Assembly (NCBI GenBank): GCA_030432235.1
Contig: JAUIHT010000002.1
Location: 124,001 to 188,000, forward strand
Source of the DNA: Verrucomicrobiia bacterium
GTDB lineage: Bacteria > Verrucomicrobiota > Verrucomicrobiia > Opitutales > Cerasicoccaceae
Reading direction: 5' to 3'
Length of the DNA stretch: 64,000 bases
Position 1 is the first letter of the stretch, and each line of letters opens with the position of its first letter. The notes below the pieces were generated by a model. It saw only the letters and a program-made list of their open reading frames with translations. It was not told where the DNA came from and did no database searches. The position numbers and the translations under genes were made by a program. Of the stretch, positions 38,416 through 46,717 are shown piece after piece.

Positions 38416-39456
38416 ATGGCTCTCCATCTTGTCACCGGCGGCTGCGGCTATCTGGGCTCCTTCATCTCACGTCGCCTTCTGGAAATGGGTGAAAGCGTCC
38501 GGGCGCTCGACGTCCTTGATGATGCCCCCGAGGCCGTGACGGACTTCGCCCGCGTCGACGTGCGTGACCGTGCCGCCGTCGATGAGGCGATGAAGGGCGT
38601 CGACTTTGTCCATCACAACGCCGCCCTGGTGCCCCTGCGCAAAGCCGGGCACCAATTCTGGGAAGTCAACGTGGAGGGCACACGAACCGTCCTACAGGCG
38701 GCCAAGGCCGCAGGCGTGGCCCACTTCACCCATATGAGCTCCTCGGCCATCTTCGGCAACGTCAAGGAGGCGGACTGCCCTATCGGCGACGACCCGTCTC
38801 ACCTGCACCCGGTGGAAATCTACGGCCGCTCGAAGTTTGCCGCCGAGCAGGCCGTCAAGGAGGAGCTGGAGAAAGGCAAGATGTCCTGCTCCATCATCCG
38901 CCCACGCACCATCCTCGGGACAGAGCGACTGGGCATTTTTCAAATCCTCTTCGAGTGGATCAGCGAGGGGCGCAATCCGTACATCATCGGCAATGGCGAA
39001 AACCTGTTTCAGTTCGCCCACGTCAACGACATCGTCGAGGTCAGCATCGAGACCGCCATGCGGCAGGTCAGCGGCCTCTTTAACATCGGCACGGACCGCT
39101 ACGACACCCTCCGCAACACCCTGCAAGCCCTCTGTGACGAGGCCGGCACTGGCTCCAAAGTGCGCGGCATCCCCGTCAGCCTGGCCATTCCCTCGCTCTG
39201 GCTGCTGGACAAGTCCCGGCTCTCACCGTTGGGCCCCTGGCACTACATGACTTACCACAAGCCTTACTATTTCGACCTGACCACGCCCTTTGCCAAGCTC
39301 CAGTGGCGGCCCCGGATGTCCAACCACGAAATGCTGATGGCTTCCTATGGCTGGTACCTGGAAAACCGCGAGCGGCTGGAAAAACAAAAGGCCCGCTCGG
39401 CCCACCGGGGCACACTCAAACACGGCATTATCAAACTCCTGAAGCACTTCTCCTAG
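38416..39456 (+). CDS. NAD-dependent epimerase/dehydratase (3-beta-HSD-like extended SDR)
   Basis: Cytoplasmic extended SDR of 346 residues. Rossmann motif is TGGCGYLGSFISRRL. The SSSAIFGN Ser precedes the catalytic pair in HPVEIYGRSKFAAEQ (YxxxK). The nucleotide-sugar or sterol-type substrate region includes RPRTILGTERLGIF and the family motif NLFQFAHVNDIVEVSI. It is the first gene of a six-gene plus-strand cassette ending with a phosphoribosyltransferase, so a role in sugar epimerisation or reduction on a lipid carrier is possible. A sterol-type role is the alternative. A membrane glycosyltransferase gene starts 24 bases downstream. Confidence 0.88.
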   Translation: MALHLVTGGCGYLGSFISRRLLEMGESVRALDVLDDAPEAVTDFARVDVRDRAAVDEAMKGVDFVHHNAALVPLRKAGHQFWEVNVEGTRTVLQAAKAAGVAHFTHMSSSAIFGNVKEADCPIGDDPSHLHPVEIYGRSKFAAEQAVKEELEKGKMSCSIIRPRTILGTERLGIFQILFEWISEGRNPYIIGNGENLFQFAHVNDIVEVSIETAMRQVSGLFNIGTDRYDTLRNTLQALCDEAGTGSKVRGIPVSLAIPSLWLLDKSRLSPLGPWHYMTYHKPYYFDLTTPFAKLQWRPRMSNHEMLMASYGWYLENRERLEKQKARSAHRGTLKHGIIKLLKHFS

Positions 39457-39479
39457 GCTCTCCCGGAACTGAGGGAATC

Positions 39480-41216
39480 ATGTCCATCGATATCTTTATC
39501 CTGATTGCCAAAATCTCGCTGCTGCTGGCTCTCTTTGCACTGGCCCTTCTACCCGCCCGTATGGAGCCGGGCGTCAAACCGGCAGCATCCCCGCTGTGGC
39601 GACGCGACTGGGTATTTTTAATTCTGGTTTTTGGTTATCTGCTGCTGTGCCTCTACCCCTATATTCGCATCAACGGCCAGTTCAATGTCGACGAGGGCCA
39701 GATGCTCATCCAGGCGGAGCGGTACCTATCCCATCCCATTCCGTGGAAGGATGTCGACGGGACCACCAGCGGCCCCTTCAACTCCTGGGTACTGTCCGTC
39801 GCCCTGGCGGCGGGAGCACCCTACAACTACGTCACGCTCCATGTAACGGCCTTTGTCCTGAACTTCCTGACAGTATTCTTCGTCTACCGCGCCTTCCGCC
39901 TCTTTGTCTCGTTGTCCGGCTCGCGGTTGGCCCTGCTGCCATTGGTTTTCGTCTACAGCACCAGCGCCCATACGAAATTCACCTATTATTCGAGCGAGAA
40001 GCTGCCGCTGCTGTTCCTGTCTATAGTGGTCTGGCTGGTCGCCAAGTATTACATATCGGGAAAGCCCCGAAGCACTTGGTTACTATGGGCGGGACTGCTG
40101 CTCGGCGCCCTTCCGTTCGCTAAGCTGCAAGCCTCCTACTGCGGCGTTGCCCTGGGCTTGGGAGCCATTCTGGCCATCGCTTTCAAAGCCCGCAAGAGCA
40201 TCATCACTAATCAGACCGCGACAAAGCACTTGGCTGTCCTGCTCATCAGTACCGGCCTCGTCCCCGCCCTGATCTTCGTTACTCTGCTCCTTAACCAAAG
40301 CCTGGAAGCATTTTGGATATCCTACATTGAGCAGGCCCTTTTCCATTCCACCATTACGAATTACAGCGTCGGCTTCCTGCTGGATTATTTCCTGATTGTG
40401 CTAAAGCCCGGCAAGTGCCTGCTGACGATCTACCTGGCCCTGCTAATCCTGATCGCCTATCTGGCCTCTCAACGAAAAGTCGCCCTGAAGGCACGTCACA
40501 CCCTACTGGCTCTTTTCAGTCTCATCTTTCTGCTGGTATGTTTGTATTCCGTACTCAAATCCGGACACCCGTTTACCCACTACGCACATTTTCTGTTTCT
40601 CGGTTTCGCCTATGCCATCGCCGCTGCGATTCATCTGATTGAGGAGTCCTCGAAGGAGCCCGGAGAAACATCCCGCCTGCGCGCTCCGATCCTGGCCCGG
40701 ATTATACTGGTGGCTTTTCCGATTGTCTTTTTTGCCCGGACGTTTGCCGACGCCACCTACTGGCGTGTCTTCATGCCCAGAAACGAGTTTATCGAAAATA
40801 CCGTAGCGTTACTCGAGCCGCACCTTGAGCAGGAGCCCACCATGAGCATCTGGGGCTGGGAACCCAAATTCTATATTTTCACCCAAACGTATCCCGCCAC
40901 ACGTGATGGCATCGGGCACTACGTCGTCTGGAATTCGCCCAATCAGGATTATTTCCGCAACCGCTATCTGGAGGACCTGAAGGCGAATCCTCCCAAGGTC
41001 TTTGTCGACGCCGTGGCGCACGGTTGCTCAAGCTGGCACGGCCAACTCTTCGGCTTTTCCTACGAAACGTTCCCCGACCTGAAAGCCTACATAGACCAGC
41101 ACTACGAGTTGGCCCATACCATCGGGATCGATCCCAGGGCCCTCCCCGTCAGGATATTTGTCCGCAGGGATGATACCTTTGCCCAAGCAATCCCGGCGGA
41201 GGACGCCAACGGCTAA
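39480..41216 (+). CDS. Membrane glycosyltransferase-like protein (GT-C fold, ArnT/PMT type)
   Basis: Polytopic membrane protein of 578 residues with about eleven to twelve helices. A conserved acidic loop NVDEGQMLIQAERYLSHPIP near residue 65 resembles the first periplasmic DE-type motif of GT-C glycosyltransferases, which binds lipid-linked sugar donors. A C-terminal soluble region of about 120 residues follows the last helix (MSIWGWEPKFYIFTQTYPAT, FVDAVAHGCSSWHG). The ATG at 39480 has GAGGGA just upstream. Position between two SDRs and beside a UbiA-type enzyme suggests transfer of the sugar made by the cassette to a periplasmic acceptor. This is inference. Confidence 0.8.
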   Translation: MSIDIFILIAKISLLLALFALALLPARMEPGVKPAASPLWRRDWVFLILVFGYLLLCLYPYIRINGQFNVDEGQMLIQAERYLSHPIPWKDVDGTTSGPFNSWVLSVALAAGAPYNYVTLHVTAFVLNFLTVFFVYRAFRLFVSLSGSRLALLPLVFVYSTSAHTKFTYYSSEKLPLLFLSIVVWLVAKYYISGKPRSTWLLWAGLLLGALPFAKLQASYCGVALGLGAILAIAFKARKSIITNQTATKHLAVLLISTGLVPALIFVTLLLNQSLEAFWISYIEQALFHSTITNYSVGFLLDYFLIVLKPGKCLLTIYLALLILIAYLASQRKVALKARHTLLALFSLIFLLVCLYSVLKSGHPFTHYAHFLFLGFAYAIAAAIHLIEESSKEPGETSRLRAPILARIILVAFPIVFFARTFADATYWRVFMPRNEFIENTVALLEPHLEQEPTMSIWGWEPKFYIFTQTYPATRDGIGHYVVWNSPNQDYFRNRYLEDLKANPPKVFVDAVAHGCSSWHGQLFGFSYETFPDLKAYIDQHYELAHTIGIDPRALPVRIFVRRDDTFAQAIPAEDANG

Positions 41217-41246
41217 CCACGCCTGACATTACTACGCATCGCGGAA

Positions 41247-42206
41247 ATGGCCAGCAACACCGATATCCCCCTTTGCGTCGATCTGGACGGCACGCTGTTC
41301 CGGCAGGACACCCTTGTCCGCGCCCTGCTCAACCTGGCCAGGCGTGACTGGCTCAGCCTTCTGCAAACCCCACTCTGGCTGACACGCGGCAAGGCATACT
41401 TCAAAGCACGCATCTTCGAGGTCTCACGCCTCGACCCCGACAGCCTCACGCCGCATGCGGAGCTGCTCGACTTCCTCCGGGCCGAGCGCGAGGCCGGGCG
41501 TCCGCTCTGGCTGGTTTCGGGTAGCGACCAACGCCAGGTCAAAGCACTGGCGCAACGTCTGGATCTCTTCTGCGGCGTGCAGGCTTCGGACGGCAAAACG
41601 AATCTCGTGGCCGAGGCCAAGGCCGCACGCCTGACCCAGCTTTTCGGCGAAGGCGACTTCGACTACGTCGGCAACTCACATCAGGATCTCCCTTGCTGGC
41701 GAGCCGCCCGTAAGAGCTATGCCGTGAATCCCCCTGATGAGCTGCTGCGCCAAATAACAGCCGATGAGACTATCCGCCTCGAGCGCGTCTTCGGAAAATT
41801 TCCCCGCCGCGCACAGCCATGCCCCATCCCCTGCGCCCTCCGGCTGACCTACGACATGAGCGCCGCCACAACCGCCACGGTATTGCGACGGACACTCCGC
41901 TCTCTGAGCCTGCCTGAAAACGACGCCCACCAGGCTGAGGCATTTATCGAGCTCATTGCTGCCCAGAAGGCGGAACTGCCATTACCCGTCCTGCTGGGTT
42001 TCACCGTGCTGGAGCTGGGCCTGTCCTGGATGACACTCTTTTCCCACGGGCGACGCTTCCAGCATTTGGCTGCCGATGCCCGCGAGGAAGTCCTGGAGCA
42101 ATGGGAAAACAGCCGCCTCGGCCCCTTGCGTGACTACGTGCGCTTCCACTTGAGCTTCGCCACCCTGAGCGCTCTTGAACCTCAGCCCAGCCCGACCACC
42201 GCATGA
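41247..42206 (+). CDS. HAD phosphatase fused to a GMC-oxidoreductase partner domain
   Basis: Protein of 319 residues in two parts. Residues 1-190 are a HAD-IB phosphatase: DLDGTLFRQDTLVRALLNL (nucleophile), VSGSDQRQVKALAQRL (motif II Ser), and GDFDYVGNSHQDLPCWRAAR (motif IV). This is the same HAD type that is often fused to the N-terminus of UbiA-like prenyltransferases. Residues 205-319 (RRTLRSLSLPENDAHQAEAF, FTVLELGLSWMTLFSHGRRF, LEQWENSRLGPLRDYVRF) resemble the small subunit-3-like domain that accompanies GMC dehydrogenases. The stop overlaps the GMC gene start (ATGA). The likely job is removal of the 5-phosphate from a lipid-phosphoribose, with recruitment of the oxidase. Confidence 0.82.
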   Translation: MASNTDIPLCVDLDGTLFRQDTLVRALLNLARRDWLSLLQTPLWLTRGKAYFKARIFEVSRLDPDSLTPHAELLDFLRAEREAGRPLWLVSGSDQRQVKALAQRLDLFCGVQASDGKTNLVAEAKAARLTQLFGEGDFDYVGNSHQDLPCWRAARKSYAVNPPDELLRQITADETIRLERVFGKFPRRAQPCPIPCALRLTYDMSAATTATVLRRTLRSLSLPENDAHQAEAFIELIAAQKAELPLPVLLGFTVLELGLSWMTLFSHGRRFQHLAADAREEVLEQWENSRLGPLRDYVRFHLSFATLSALEPQPSPTTA

Positions 42207-43642
42207 AGCCCGACGGAGAGTTTCAGAACATCATCGCGGGGTCAGGCCCGGGAGGCGCTGTGGCAGCCTCGATGTTGGCGGCGCAAGGCCAGTCCACCGC
42301 GGTGCTGGAGGCCGGGCTCGACTGGGCGAAACTGCCTCCGCCGGTGCCTTTCTCCTTCGACGAAATCCAGAAGAAATACCGGCAGCGCGGCATGACTGTC
42401 GCCTTGGGCACACCCAAGGTCGCCTACGCCGAAGGCTGCTGCCTGGGTGGCGGCAGCGAGGTCAACAGCGGGCTCTTCCACCGCTGCCCGGAAGCGCTAT
42501 TCGCCGAGTGGCACAAGCGCTACCAGCTCAAGCCCACCCCGGAGGATATCTGGGAGCACATCTACGCCGGTATCGAAAAGGAGTTGTCCGTGCAATGCCA
42601 TCCCGACGGTTTGCCGGGCGCGGCCCGGATGCTGCGTGACGGCGCGGAGAGCCTCGGCTGGCAGGGTCTGGAGGTCCCCCGTTGGGTGCGTTATTCCAGC
42701 GACGCCTCCGGAGCGACCGTGGAGGTCAGGCAAACGATGTCGAAAACCTTCCTGCGCCAGGCCGCAGAGGCAGGCTGCCAGTTCGTCACCGGCACGAGTG
42801 TGCGTCGCATCGAGCGGGCGGGCAGTCACTGGCTGCTGCACTGTCACCAGCGCGACGGCAGCTTTTGCCGGGAGAAAGTTTACCGCACGGAAAACCTCTT
42901 CCTTGCCTGCGGCGCCACGCAGACGCCCTTCCTCCTGCGACGCTCCGGATTGGCTCTGGGCAAACTCTCCCCGCTGCACCTGCACCCGACCATCAAGGTC
43001 ATCGCGAAGTTCCCCGGGGAGATCAACGGGCCGGAGATGGGCGTGCCCTCGTACCAGGTCAAGGAGCACGCGCCGGACTACAGCTTCGGCTGCTCCATCA
43101 GCACACCACAGCATCTGGCGTTGAATCTCCTCGATCACCCCGAGGCCTTGCGCAGCATGGAGGGCGACGGCTGGCGACGCCATGCTATTTACTACGCCAT
43201 GACCACCGGCGGCAAGGGACGCGTCCTCGACCCCCGCCTGGGCGACAAGCCGCTGGTCACCTACGCCCTTGACCACCCCGAGCTGGCCCTCATGAACCGC
43301 GCGGCCAGGGACCTCATGCGCCTGCTGCTGGCTGCGGGCGCGGAGTATGTCGTCCCGACCGTGCGCGGCGCACCCATCGTGCGTACCGAAGAGGAACTGG
43401 CCGCCCTGCCGGAAGCCTTCCCTGCCGCCGACATGAACCTGATGACCATTCACCTCTTTTCCAGTGCCCGCATGGGCGAAGACTCCGCCGCCGTGACCGA
43501 CACCTACGGGCAGCTGCGCGGCCAGGAGAACCTGTGGGTCGCGGATGCAAGCTTGCTCTGTGGCCCTCCCTCGGTAAACCCACAAGGCAGCATCATGGCC
43601 ATTGTGAAACGCAACCTCCTGCATCACCTCGGCCAACTATAA
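42203..43642 (+). CDS. GMC-family FAD-dependent oxidoreductase
   Basis: Flavoprotein of 479 residues. The N-terminal dinucleotide fold is IIAGSGPGGAVAASMLAAQG, followed by GCCLGGGSEVNSGLFHRCP (GMC signature 1), TENLFLACGATQTPFLLRRSG (signature 2) and the C-terminal catalytic region FSSARMGEDSAAVTDTYGQL with WVADASLLCGPPSVNPQGSI. No signal peptide is visible. In the cassette it could oxidise the 2'-hydroxyl of a lipid-linked ribose, replacing the unrelated oxidase DprE1. The substrate is not shown by sequence. It is translationally coupled to the HAD fusion upstream. Confidence 0.9.
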   Translation: MKPDGEFQNIIAGSGPGGAVAASMLAAQGQSTAVLEAGLDWAKLPPPVPFSFDEIQKKYRQRGMTVALGTPKVAYAEGCCLGGGSEVNSGLFHRCPEALFAEWHKRYQLKPTPEDIWEHIYAGIEKELSVQCHPDGLPGAARMLRDGAESLGWQGLEVPRWVRYSSDASGATVEVRQTMSKTFLRQAAEAGCQFVTGTSVRRIERAGSHWLLHCHQRDGSFCREKVYRTENLFLACGATQTPFLLRRSGLALGKLSPLHLHPTIKVIAKFPGEINGPEMGVPSYQVKEHAPDYSFGCSISTPQHLALNLLDHPEALRSMEGDGWRRHAIYYAMTTGGKGRVLDPRLGDKPLVTYALDHPELALMNRAARDLMRLLLAAGAEYVVPTVRGAPIVRTEEELAALPEAFPAADMNLMTIHLFSSARMGEDSAAVTDTYGQLRGQENLWVADASLLCGPPSVNPQGSIMAIVKRNLLHHLGQL

Positions 43643-43648
43643 ACAACC

Positions 43649-44695
43649 GTGGCGGCAACGGACTTCCAGCAAATCATCATCACCGGCGCCTCCGGCTGGT
43701 TGGGACGCACCCTCATCCGCTGCCTGCTGGACCGAACCTTTCCCGAGCTGACGCCCGACGCGCCCATCCGGGCCTTCGTCAAACCCGAGGAAGCCGCGCT
43801 GCTCGCCCCCTGGAAGGAGCATCTGACCATCATCGAAGGCGACCTGACCAATCCAGATGCCTGCAAAAAGCTGATGACGGAGGCCCGCGATGCGCTGGTC
43901 ATCCACACCGCCGGGTTTATCCACCCCCGGCGCGTGAGTGACTTCTACCGGGTCAACGTCTCCGGCACGGAAAACCTCATCGCCAGCCTGAACCCTGACA
44001 ACACTCACCGCCTGGTAGCCGTTTCCTCCAACTCCCCCTGCGGCTGCAATCCCTACCCCGAGCACATCTTCACCGAGGAGTCCCCTTACCGCCCCTACAT
44101 GAACTACGGGCGCTCCAAAATGCTGATGGAAAAACGCCTGCTGGACTCCGGCGCTCCCAGGCTGCGCATCATCCGGGCTCCGTGGTTTTACGGCCCGCTC
44201 CAACCGCCGCGCCAGAAGCTGTTTTTCGAGATGATCCAAAAGGGCAAGGTCCCGGTGGTCGGCGACGGCACCAACCCGCGCTCCATGGCCTACACCGAAA
44301 ACCTCGCCCAGGGCATCCTGCGGGCCGCCGTCAACGACGAGTCGGAGCAAACCATTTTCTGGATTGCCGACCTGCGGCCCTACTCCATGAATGAGATTAT
44401 CGAAACCGTCGAAAGCCTGCTGGAGGACGACTTCGGCATCCCTTGCGCCCACAAACGCATGAAACTGCCGCACTTCGCCGGGGAAATCGCTACCGCGGCG
44501 GACTGGCTGATCCAGCGCACCGGCCTCTACCACCAGAAGATGCACGTCCTCTCGGAGATGAACAAAACCATCGCCTGCTCCGTCGAGCTGGCCCGGAAGG
44601 AGCTCGGCTACGCACCGCAGGTCGACCTGCGTGCGGGCATGCGCGCCAGCCTGCAGGAAATTTTTGATCGTGAGCCCGGTTGGCTAAAGGCGTAA
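43649..44695 (+). CDS. NAD-dependent epimerase/dehydratase (extended SDR)
   Basis: Extended SDR of 348 residues with Rossmann motif IITGASGWLGRTLIRCLL, VIHTAGFIHPRRVSDFYRVN, and active-site YxxxK in PYMNYGRSKMLMEKRL. The conserved substrate element RAPWFYGPLQPPRQ follows. The start is GTG at 43649, six bases after the GMC stop. With the GMC oxidase it could make an oxidation/reduction pair that epimerises a lipid-linked sugar, as DprE1/DprE2 do. Similar to but clearly distinct from the SDR that opens the cassette. UbiA-type gene begins seven bases later. Confidence 0.9.
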   Translation: MAATDFQQIIITGASGWLGRTLIRCLLDRTFPELTPDAPIRAFVKPEEAALLAPWKEHLTIIEGDLTNPDACKKLMTEARDALVIHTAGFIHPRRVSDFYRVNVSGTENLIASLNPDNTHRLVAVSSNSPCGCNPYPEHIFTEESPYRPYMNYGRSKMLMEKRLLDSGAPRLRIIRAPWFYGPLQPPRQKLFFEMIQKGKVPVVGDGTNPRSMAYTENLAQGILRAAVNDESEQTIFWIADLRPYSMNEIIETVESLLEDDFGIPCAHKRMKLPHFAGEIATAADWLIQRTGLYHQKMHVLSEMNKTIACSVELARKELGYAPQVDLRAGMRASLQEIFDREPGWLKA

Positions 44696-44701
44696 CCCAG
44701 C

Positions 44702-45583
44702 ATGAACCCAGCACCCTACATCCAGCTCCTCCGGCCCAAGCAATGGATTAAAAACGGGTTCTGCTTTGCCGGGCTGATCTTCAGCGGGCGGCTTTTTGAA
44801 ATACCCCTGGCCTTCGACGCGGTACGTCTCTTTATCGCCTTCTGCCTGGCCTCTGCCGCCGTCTATGTGCTCAACGACATCCTCGACGCCCCGAGCGACC
44901 GTCATCACCCCCGCAAACGTCTCCGACCTGTGGCCAGCGGACAGGTGCCGCCACGCAACGCCTGGGCTCTGCTGGCCGGACTGGCCGTAGTGTTGGCGCT
45001 GTTTCTCTTCAGCTTCAACATGCTGACGGTCGGCGCCATCCTGGCCTACCTCCTCAACAATCTGCTCTACAATCTCCTCTTTAAAAAGCACATCATCATC
45101 GACGTGATGTCCATTGGCTTCGGGTTCGTCCTGCGGCTGCTGGGGGGCATCTATGTCATCGGCGAAGTGCCTACGGCCTGGATTACCATCTGCACCTTTT
45201 TCCTGGCACTGTATCTGGGCTTCTCCAAGCGCATCGTGGAGCTCAAGGCGGCCACGAATGGAGACGCCGACCTGCAGCGAAAATCCCTCGGCAGCTATAC
45301 CCCGGCCATGCTCGACAAGCTGCTTAACGGCACCTCCATCATCACCGTGACCAGCTACGCGCTTTTCACCGTGACTTCTCACCTGAACTCGACGCTCATC
45401 CTGACCCTCCCCTTCGTCTACTACGGCATCATGTACTTCGAGTGTAAGACGCTGGCCAACGAGACCAACGAAGCCCTGGAAGAAGTCCTGCTGCGCGACC
45501 ACAAGCTACAGGTCATCATCGCCTGCTGGCTGCTGGTCTACATCGCCATCTTTTATTGGGATATCCGGCTCTTTGCCTATTAG
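44702..45583 (+). CDS. UbiA-type decaprenyl-phosphate phosphoribosyltransferase-like protein
   Basis: Integral membrane prenyl-acceptor transferase of 293 residues with about eight helices. The two Asp motifs are NDILDAPSDRHHPRKRLRPV near residue 60 and YNLLFKKHIIIDVMSIGFGF near residue 130. The NDxxDxxxDRxHPxKRxRPxASG form and ALYLGFSKRIVEL plus LGSYTPAMLDKL are those of DPPR synthase (mycobacterial Rv3806c type), not of UbiA proper. The reaction would be PRPP plus decaprenyl phosphate to a lipid-phosphoribose. Last gene of the cassette; its stop overlaps the convergent methyltransferase stop by four bases. Confidence 0.88.
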   Translation: MNPAPYIQLLRPKQWIKNGFCFAGLIFSGRLFEIPLAFDAVRLFIAFCLASAAVYVLNDILDAPSDRHHPRKRLRPVASGQVPPRNAWALLAGLAVVLALFLFSFNMLTVGAILAYLLNNLLYNLLFKKHIIIDVMSIGFGFVLRLLGGIYVIGEVPTAWITICTFFLALYLGFSKRIVELKAATNGDADLQRKSLGSYTPAMLDKLLNGTSIITVTSYALFTVTSHLNSTLILTLPFVYYGIMYFECKTLANETNEALEEVLLRDHKLQVIIACWLLVYIAIFYWDIRLFAY

Positions 45584-46599
45584 GCTGACTTGGCCAACAA
45601 GTATTGCCCGTTGCCGTAGTGGTTGCAGCCCTCCAGGCCGAAAGTCGAAACGCAACCGCACAGGTAAATTTCCCAGAGCTTGAGCGTGGCTGCATCTATC
45701 CCGGTGGCCTCGATCACGGCACGGTTGCGGCGGAAGTTGGCCAACCAGGCCAGGAGCGTCCGGCGGTAGTTACCGCCGTCGAAAAACCAGTCGCCGCGTA
45801 GCTCGAAAGGCTCCGGGTGCTCTATCTGTCCTGGATAGGCCCGGTTGCGTCCGCCGGGAAAGACGTAGCGGTCGATGAAAGCGTTCTGGCGGGGCTCGGT
45901 CTGGTCGTCCTCATGGGGCTTATAGACGATGTAGTGGTGAAACACCTGCCCACCCGGCTCCAGCAGACCGGCGATCTTGGCGTTGGCCGCGCGCAGGCTG
46001 GCGATGTGCTCCATCACCCCGATACTGACCACCCGGTCGAACTTCTCCTGAGTTCCCCACTCCGCGAAGTTGGCCTGGACGATTTTGAAGCGCGGGGTGT
46101 TGAGCGGATGGCCGGGCTCGGTCTGCTTTTCCCGGATGTAATCCGCCTGGGTCCGGCTGAGCGTAAGCCCGGTCACCGCCACCTCGGGATAGCGCTCCAA
46201 CACGTGGGCGCAGAAACTACCAAAACCGCAGCCAATATCCAGGATTCGCTGACTGCCGCCGATGGTCGCCTTGGCGCACAGGTCGTCCAGCATGGCCTCC
46301 TGAGCCTGCTCGAGGTTGCACGCTCCCCGGCTCCACAGGCCCATGGAGTACTTCATGGTGGGCCCGAGCATGTTTTCAAACAGGACCCGCGGCATGTCGT
46401 AATGCACCTGCATCAGCCGCTCGCTGCTCTCGGCGATGATATCCTCGGCCTCCTCCGCCGTCCGGCACTGGCGCCCCGTCAGGCGGTCAAAGTGGTGGAA
46501 GCCGGTTACGTAGGCGGCAATAACGGCACGCACCAAAGCCCCCGGCAGGGCGAAGGATGAATGCAGATAGGCATGAACAAGACGGCTTTCGCTGTCCAT
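45580..46599 (-). CDS. Cyclopropane-fatty-acid-synthase-like SAM methyltransferase
   Basis: Methyltransferase of 339 residues. The SAM-binding motif is ILDIGCGFGSFCAHVLERYP near residue 150, followed by VTGLTLSRTQADYIRE and RVVSIGVMEHIASLRAANAK. The order and the DRYVFPGG and FFDGGNYRRTLLAWLANF regions match the CFAS/coclaurine N-methyltransferase superfamily. The usual CFAS N-terminal lipid-binding domain is replaced by a short helical region. The substrate (unsaturated phospholipid or a small amine) cannot be decided. The ATG at 46599 is chosen; an in-frame GTG-like extension to 46707 lacks support. Confidence 0.85.
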   Translation of the reverse strand: MDSESRLVHAYLHSSFALPGALVRAVIAAYVTGFHHFDRLTGRQCRTAEEAEDIIAESSERLMQVHYDMPRVLFENMLGPTMKYSMGLWSRGACNLEQAQEAMLDDLCAKATIGGSQRILDIGCGFGSFCAHVLERYPEVAVTGLTLSRTQADYIREKQTEPGHPLNTPRFKIVQANFAEWGTQEKFDRVVSIGVMEHIASLRAANAKIAGLLEPGGQVFHHYIVYKPHEDDQTEPRQNAFIDRYVFPGGRNRAYPGQIEHPEPFELRGDWFFDGGNYRRTLLAWLANFRRNRAVIEATGIDAATLKLWEIYLCGCVSTFGLEGCNHYGNGQYLLAKSA

Positions 46600-46717
46600 G
46601 CCAGCAAGTGAATAGCCCAAATTAGGACGTTTCAAGGAAGAATATCCATAAAATGGGCTCCAGGCAGGCGCGAGCCCCCCGAAATACGTGCTTTTGACCG
46701 AAACCACCCTTGACTAC

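Follow-up and report, generated by a model that had tools for sequence, protein, structure and literature searches.

Can the six-gene cassette at positions 38416-45583 of the stretch analysed here make and transfer a lipid-linked pentose with a set of enzymes that lacks DprE1 and DprE2? The stretch is a 64-kb window on contig JAUIHT010000002.1 of a Verrucomicrobiia bacterium (family Cerasicoccaceae); all coordinates are positions in this window, and L-numbers and G-numbers refer to loci and genomes, respectively. The open reading frames (ORFs) of the cassette encode two short-chain dehydrogenases/reductases (SDR1 and SDR2), a membrane protein, a HAD phosphatase, a GMC-type FAD oxidoreductase and a UbiA-family protein. 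We propose, with a probability of roughly two in three, that the cassette uses 5-phosphoribosyl 1-pyrophosphate (PRPP) to build a pentofuranose on polyprenyl phosphate, and that this sugar is then transferred outside the membrane. We further conclude that the GMC protein, a small partner domain and SDR2 remodel polyprenyl-phospho-ribose at the point where DprE1 and DprE2 do so elsewhere.

The UbiA transferase, the HAD phosphatase and the membrane protein

In the preliminary description of this DNA the UbiA protein was taken to be of the decaprenylphosphoryl-phosphoribose synthase type, a reading upheld by model scores, comparison with solved structures and trees. The protein scored 208.5 bits against the decaprenyl-phosphate phosphoribosyltransferase model NF008977, which is below the cut-off of 234, and the listed 4-hydroxybenzoate models gave far lower scores of at most 37.1 bits. 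A profile built from 19 relatives matched two Rv3806c structures in the PDB at 232 (8j8j) and 191 bits, with five other UbiA sequences among the matches listed scoring at most 51.7 bits. The first UbiA tree contained one row from the window's own genome that was translated on the wrong strand, and its outgroup branches were very long; the tree was repeated on 21 corrected rows. There, the window UbiA fell on the Rv3806c side of the branch (support 83/92), in a five-row set with unfused UbiAs from other cassettes (99/99) and separate from three further UbiAs of its own genome. The profile scores and the 21-row tree ruled out a quinone or chlorophyll UbiA. By its sequence relationships, then, the protein belongs with Rv3806c, apart from the quinone, heme and chlorophyll UbiAs, and would be expected to use PRPP and polyprenyl phosphate.

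The HAD phosphatase was also correctly recognized and is of the kind found fused to Rv3806c-type UbiA. Residues 3-174 matched the HAD portion of PRK08238, a model for HAD-UbiA fusions (167.2 bits), and the window protein retains the DLDGT and GNSxxDLP motifs. What did not hold was the view of this phosphatase as a departure from the known sets, since a HAD phosphatase acting with a UbiA synthase, together with GT-C transfer and SDR epimerisation, is already established by Kelly 2024 (PMC11127046).

The HAD ORF was found to carry a second, C-terminal domain, assigned by homology and overlooked before: from residue ~231 it matches the small protein located directly before the GMC gene in relatives. 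Profile scans detected this small domain in 77 of 88 loci. Among the 69 collected loci having both, 18 encode it in a single ORF with GMC, and the window is the only one of the 88 loci in which it shares an ORF with the HAD phosphatase. Two of 17 members matched Gluconate_2-dh3 (PF13618), weakly (best E value, 0.0028), and such a likeness to gluconate 2-dehydrogenase subunit 3 would fit a GMC partner; a search of the PDB produced just two matches, with E values near 1. In seven loci (L059, L060, L068, L078, L089, L090 and L098) the small domain lies in one ORF with a long polytopic membrane protein. The two of these extensions that were tested both matched LPG_synthase_TM, so the membrane part may be a flippase or an anchor. 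L028 and L084 have long extensions as well, but these seem to be frame that is not coding.

The sixth protein is probably of the GT-C fold, as judged from a structure model of low confidence (predicted local distance difference test [pLDDT] score of 49, from an alignment of three sequences). When this weak model was compared with solved structures, the first 37 rows were all GT-C-fold proteins (Z 14.4 to 8.3), including AftA, AftB, EmbB and ArnT, and unrelated chains began at Z 7.8; for helical proteins, Z values under about 13 can arise by chance. Some matches were named by complex alone, and these chains we take to be STT3 or PIG-U. Foldseek returned no match at E < 0.001, and sequence searches gave no Pfam match and nothing useful in the PDB. 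The GT-C transferase named in the preliminary description stands as a probable fold, and not as a gene that most cassettes share.

A GMC module proposed to stand in the position of DprE1 and DprE2

The oxidoreductase of the window is a GMC protein and not a DprE1 of the FAD_binding_4 type. Its identification as GMC-type, made earlier from the letters of the sequence, was confirmed by matches to GMC_oxred_N and GMC_oxred_C (PF00732 and PF05199) and by His417 and Asn459, which are conserved in 44 of 44 alignment rows. A His and an Asn are the catalytic residues of the GMC family. The structure model is of high quality (pLDDT, 94.8), and the closest solved proteins are choline oxidase (Z 37.6) and cholesterol oxidase (Z 37.0). 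In the GMC tree the placement of the window protein is unsure, as it sits on a long branch in no well-supported set. Both SDRs match the Pfam families Epimerase and 3Beta_HSD. The earlier suggestion of an SDR equivalent to DprE2 did not survive as worded, since neither SDR is DprE2-like: the DprE2 profile matched no cassette SDR, and the DprE2 model NF053786 was absent from the families listed, which were 25 of 28 for SDR1 and all 15 for SDR2. On sequence grounds, GMC, the small domain and SDR2 appear to fill the DprE1/DprE2 position without belonging to either family.

These three components also evolve together. Pairwise distance correlations were high for GMC and the small domain (r = 0.87), GMC and SDR2 (r = 0.86) and SDR2 and the small domain (r = 0.76), and GMC and SDR2 form one ORF in 3 of the 80 loci described below. 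SDR1 distances correlated weakly with those of GMC (r = 0.26) and SDR2 (r = 0.18), and UbiA gave values of 0.37 with GMC and 0.44 with SDR2. Because of these correlations and the GMC-SDR2 fusions, we regard small domain, GMC and SDR2 as the oxidising-reducing core and SDR1 as auxiliary.

To place the cassette among other bacteria, SDR2 was used as bait against a genome set with a single representative of each species. This yielded 233 relatives, and the 80 best loci were retained. SDR2 is present in all 80 by construction, and the other members are not. GMC was present in 71, SDR1 in 72, the small domain in 69, UbiA in 48, an SMR transporter gene in 21 and DprE1, using a profile built from L010 alone, in none; HAD and UbiA were fused in one protein in 26. 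Of the 64 loci having at least 4 kb of upstream sequence, 55 have a same-strand GMC gene no more than 2.5 kb upstream of SDR2, and six of the nine loci without GMC had it elsewhere in the genome, one as two fragments. Ten named phyla are represented, with 25 loci from Verrucomicrobiota, 14 from Cyanobacteriota, 13 each from Myxococcota and Pseudomonadota, 6 from Planctomycetota, 2 each from Acidobacteriota and Campylobacterota and one from each of three others, leaving two loci unassigned. Since the gene set recurs across so many phyla, the cassette is more than a chance arrangement.

None of the outcomes set out in the preliminary description as refuting it came about, although conservation of the gene set in other genomes was borne out for distant bacteria and failed among near relatives. 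GMC was found in 3 of 54 relatives, the window's genome included, and in none of nine other genomes of its family. Among 288 phylum genomes it was found in 2, again including the window's, in a search that scored no more than five candidates in each genome. In the genome-wide UbiA search, one genome, G248, was probably counted twice, appearing again as the genome of L088 with identical coordinates. On a Rhizobium gallicum plasmid (L016:4448-10430) the HAD-UbiA and GMC frames are each in two pieces, and this copy may be decaying.

The window's own genome has no DprE1 or DprE2 above the model cut-offs, so that standard enzymes elsewhere in the genome can be set aside. The DprE1 profile gave no match at 1e-20, the best score with the DprE1 model was 47.3 bits against a cut-off of 500, and the best DprE2 score was 66.8 bits against a cut-off of 250. 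PF04030 likewise found no DprE1 in this genome; this is a poor test, as one DprE1-like protein in the present collection scores E 0.0035 and another has no match.

For comparison with the GMC cassettes, 60 further UbiA loci from the phylum (L129-L188) were hand-picked across the ranked match list. Neither GMC nor the small domain was present in any of them, and four (L147, L185, L187 and L188) had DprE1-like and DprE2-like genes. In these four, UbiA or HAD-UbiA lies beside an oxidase and a reductase, as in the GMC cassettes, with the DprE1/DprE2-like genes in place of GMC, small domain and SDR2. The gene order of L147 is UbiA, DprE1, DprE2, and L185 has two genes more, one GtrA-like and one for a large membrane protein. 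The two proteins compared with the curated DprE1 model, from L010 and L147, scored 363.6 and 342.7 bits (cut-off, 500), and three proteins compared with the curated DprE2 model scored 197, 145 and 152 bits (cut-off, 250), so that all stayed below the cut-offs. In the first UbiA tree, with its one bad row, L147 grouped with L087 and L091 (100/99), L187 and L188 with L081 (94/87) and L185 with rhizobial rows (93/73); in the corrected tree L147 grouped with L091 (98/99) and L185 with L015 (92/90). The DprE1-linked UbiAs thus adjoin GMC-linked UbiAs, suggesting that either module can be combined with one and the same type of transferase. Across the phylum, DprE1 was found in 22 of 288 genomes, and a UbiA search matched 157 of the 288, some of the matches being other UbiAs, with all 22 DprE1 genomes among them. 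The remaining 56 of the 60 comparison loci have neither GMC nor DprE1 nearby.

The mycobacterial decaprenyl-phospho-arabinose pathway (Rv3806c, Rv3807c, DprE1, DprE2 and GT-C arabinosyltransferases) uses a UbiA of the same family, and the cassette has a candidate for each of its other roles, those of phosphatase, FAD oxidoreductase, SDR and GT-C. The window differs in having a HAD-type phosphatase, GMC instead of DprE1 and extended SDRs that are not DprE2-like, and in its additional small domain and second SDR. With the Citrobacter youngae O1 and O2 systems the window shares a HAD phosphatase with UbiA, GT-C (probable in the window) and, in O2, an SDR; those systems differ in their MATE flippase and in epimerisation through one SDR (PMC11127046). 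The terms "GMC" and "oxidoreductase" occur nowhere in the main text of that paper, its supplement lying outside this count. Literature searches with little coverage of subscription journals and none of supplements turned up no account of a GMC module for this pathway. One candidate paper, PMC9045290, proved unrelated.

A related arrangement is found on a rhizobial plasmid, pNGR234a. Near nodS, genes for an SDR, an SMR transporter, the small protein and GMC lie in one direction, and genes for a 658-aa protein without a Pfam match, SDR2 and HAD-UbiA lie in the opposite direction. These are presumably the genes y4nG-y4nM, a name search for which gave nothing relevant. The 658-aa protein had no detectable relation to the GT-C protein of the window (E 0.09). 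The noeCHOP arabinosylation operon, described in Azorhizobium and in Rhizobium sp. IRBG74, resembles the cassette by its description, as two papers propose a lipid-linked arabinose route for it from likeness to mycobacterial proteins (PMC2443382 and PMC5080398); the pNGR234a locus carries GMC, small-protein and SMR genes.

Proposed pathway, its product and the alternatives

We infer the following route, including its oxidised carbon, its sugar, its flipping step and its acceptor. After UbiA has joined PRPP to polyprenyl phosphate, the HAD phosphatase would take off the 5-phosphate, GMC with the small domain would oxidise a ring hydroxyl, most likely at C2, and SDR2 would reduce the resulting ketone to the inverted configuration, with SDR1 as an auxiliary reductase or epimerase. 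The sugar would then be flipped, and the GT-C-like protein would add it to an envelope polymer. Arabinofuranose is the single likeliest product, although we name it tentatively and at somewhat less than even odds.

Several observations weigh against this proposal. All support comes from sequence and structure models; choline and cholesterol oxidases as the nearest solved GMC proteins say little about the substrate; and SDR1 has no defined step. GT-C homologues were found in only 2 of the 80 loci (L063 and L066), so cassettes do not share this gene as a rule; 43 of the loci have a different long ORF for a polytopic protein. A profile scan of the locus found no SMR gene in the window's cassette. 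Among 43 genomes tested for DprE1 (39 of those of the 80 loci and four further genomes), 10 had a match at 1e-20, 6 of them above 380 bits, which rules out that GMC and DprE1 strictly exclude each other. G345 has HAD-UbiA with DprE1/DprE2-like genes (L203) and GMC/SDR2 elsewhere (L064), and no second UbiA was found; in G356, too, a strong DprE1 match accompanies a single UbiA; and G385 has a HAD-UbiA/DprE1 locus (L206) besides a complete GMC locus (L094). In G017 (L010:8413-11549) the small domain and GMC directly precede a DprE1-like gene, and SDR2 was not found at 1e-60. L086, a module locus, ends in a DprE2-like fragment (57.3 bits). Where one UbiA serves a genome with both modules, the modules may make different sugars, and because some genomes hold the GMC module together with DprE1/DprE2-like genes, arabinofuranose as the product is unproven. 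Separately, GMC and DprE1 may act together in G017.

These genomes bear on the possibility that the same route leads to polyprenyl-phospho-ribose, from which GMC, SDR2 and SDR1 then make another pentofuranose: the xylo form (C3 inversion), the lyxo form (C2 and C3 inversion) or some other modified pentose. We consider this a serious contender, a little short of an even chance. In its favour, G345 has both modules with one UbiA found, and G385 has a HAD-UbiA/DprE1 locus besides a complete GMC locus, although duplicate routes to one product are generally common. The cassette has two SDRs where one partners DprE1, and Citrobacter O2 forms xylofuranose with a single SDR (PMC11127046). At L149:7953-9775, an SDR1-like gene overlaps the start of a UbiA gene belonging to this family, without GMC, perhaps as a one-SDR epimerase system. 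Yet an FAD oxidase with a separate reductase fits the C2 chemistry of DprE1/DprE2, and the one C3 case described uses a single SDR (PMC11127046). The same source gives two remodelling routes for polyprenyl-linked ribofuranose, DprE1/DprE2 to arabinose and one SDR to xylose, and states that lyxofuranose, requiring inversion at both C2 and C3, is absent from all carbohydrate structures solved so far; it also mentions other systems, from Xanthomonas and Bacillus and with more than one candidate epimerase, that are shown in its supplement (PMC11127046). Since inversion at both carbons is needed and the GMC-bearing cassette has an oxidase and two SDRs, it is a candidate for lyxofuranose, and no more than that; a second, independently evolved remodelling in which the two SDRs invert C2 and C3 to lyxofuranose seems quite improbable.

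It is also unlikely, if slightly less so, that UbiA, HAD and GT-C form a plain ribofuranose-adding system with GMC and SDR genes of unrelated function travelling along. The core does co-evolve only moderately with UbiA (r = 0.37 and 0.44, as noted above) and often lies apart from it, UbiA being nearby in 48 of 80 loci; but 27 of the 32 genomes without a nearby UbiA have one elsewhere, and in the window a single protein combines HAD with the partner domain of GMC. Least probable of all is a modification of terpenoids, sterols or hopanoids, with UbiA prenylating a ring compound and GMC and the 3-beta-HSD-like SDRs acting as cholesterol-oxidase-like redox enzymes. The 3Beta_HSD match of both SDRs, the structural nearness of cholesterol oxidases to GMC and an adjoining cyclopropane-synthase-like methyltransferase are in line with it, as is the appearance of HpnA (98 bits) and SdmB (86 bits) as the best-scoring models for SDR1, but those scores are far under the cut-offs of 368 and 600. 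Moreover, the UbiA is of the phosphoribosyltransferase type, the HAD and GT-C genes would have no obvious role, and DprE1/DprE2-like genes occupy the same place next to the same kind of UbiA. A polyprenyl-phosphate-linked pentofuranose, remodelled by GMC, small domain and SDR2, is therefore the reading we prefer.

Gene arrangement, neighbouring genes and significance

The preliminary description of a tight six-gene unit on the plus strand agrees with the ORF positions, the short intergenic distances (23, 30, -4, 6 and 6 bases) and the Pfam families found, which include HAD and UbiA in addition to those given above. The coordinates are collected in Table 1. The HAD and GMC ORFs overlap by 4 bases. 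For the GT-C gene the start was taken as the ATG at 39480, the longest frame beginning at a GTG at 39303, within SDR1.

Table 1. Genes and domains of the cassette, by position in the window
Feature	Position	Strand	Description
SDR1	38416..39456	+	Extended SDR; Pfam Epimerase/3Beta_HSD; presumed auxiliary reductase or epimerase
GT-C gene	39480..41216	+	Membrane protein of probable GT-C fold; putative pentofuranosyltransferase
HAD ORF	41247..42206	+	HAD phosphatase (residues ~3-174) and C-terminal small domain (putative GMC partner)
Small domain of HAD ORF	41940..42179 (about)	+	Homologous to the small protein before or fused to GMC in relatives
GMC	42203..43642	+	FAD oxidoreductase; presumed oxidase/dehydrogenase of polyprenyl-phospho-ribose
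SDR2	43649..44695	+	Extended SDR, GTG start; presumed ketone reductase partnering GMC
UbiA	44702..45583	+	UbiA-family polyprenyl-phosphate phosphoribosyltransferase, Rv3806c type (predicted)

The GC content of the six genes ranges from 0.555 to 0.655, and that of the whole window is 0.589. No flippase gene was found within the cassette. Upstream lies a heavy-metal P-type ATPase gene on the opposite strand, and the methyltransferase gene mentioned above (45580-46707) abuts the cassette with a 4-base overlap with the UbiA gene. It is followed by a gene whose product we take to be isoleucyl-tRNA synthetase.

A GMC gene adjoining SDR2 provides a sequence marker of the module, which is spread over ten named phyla and includes cyanobacteria, an anammox bacterium and rhizobial symbiosis plasmids among its carriers. 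If it is indeed a third redox module for polyprenyl-linked ribofuranose, many bacteria would bear a pentofuranose in a surface glycan where perhaps nobody has looked for one.

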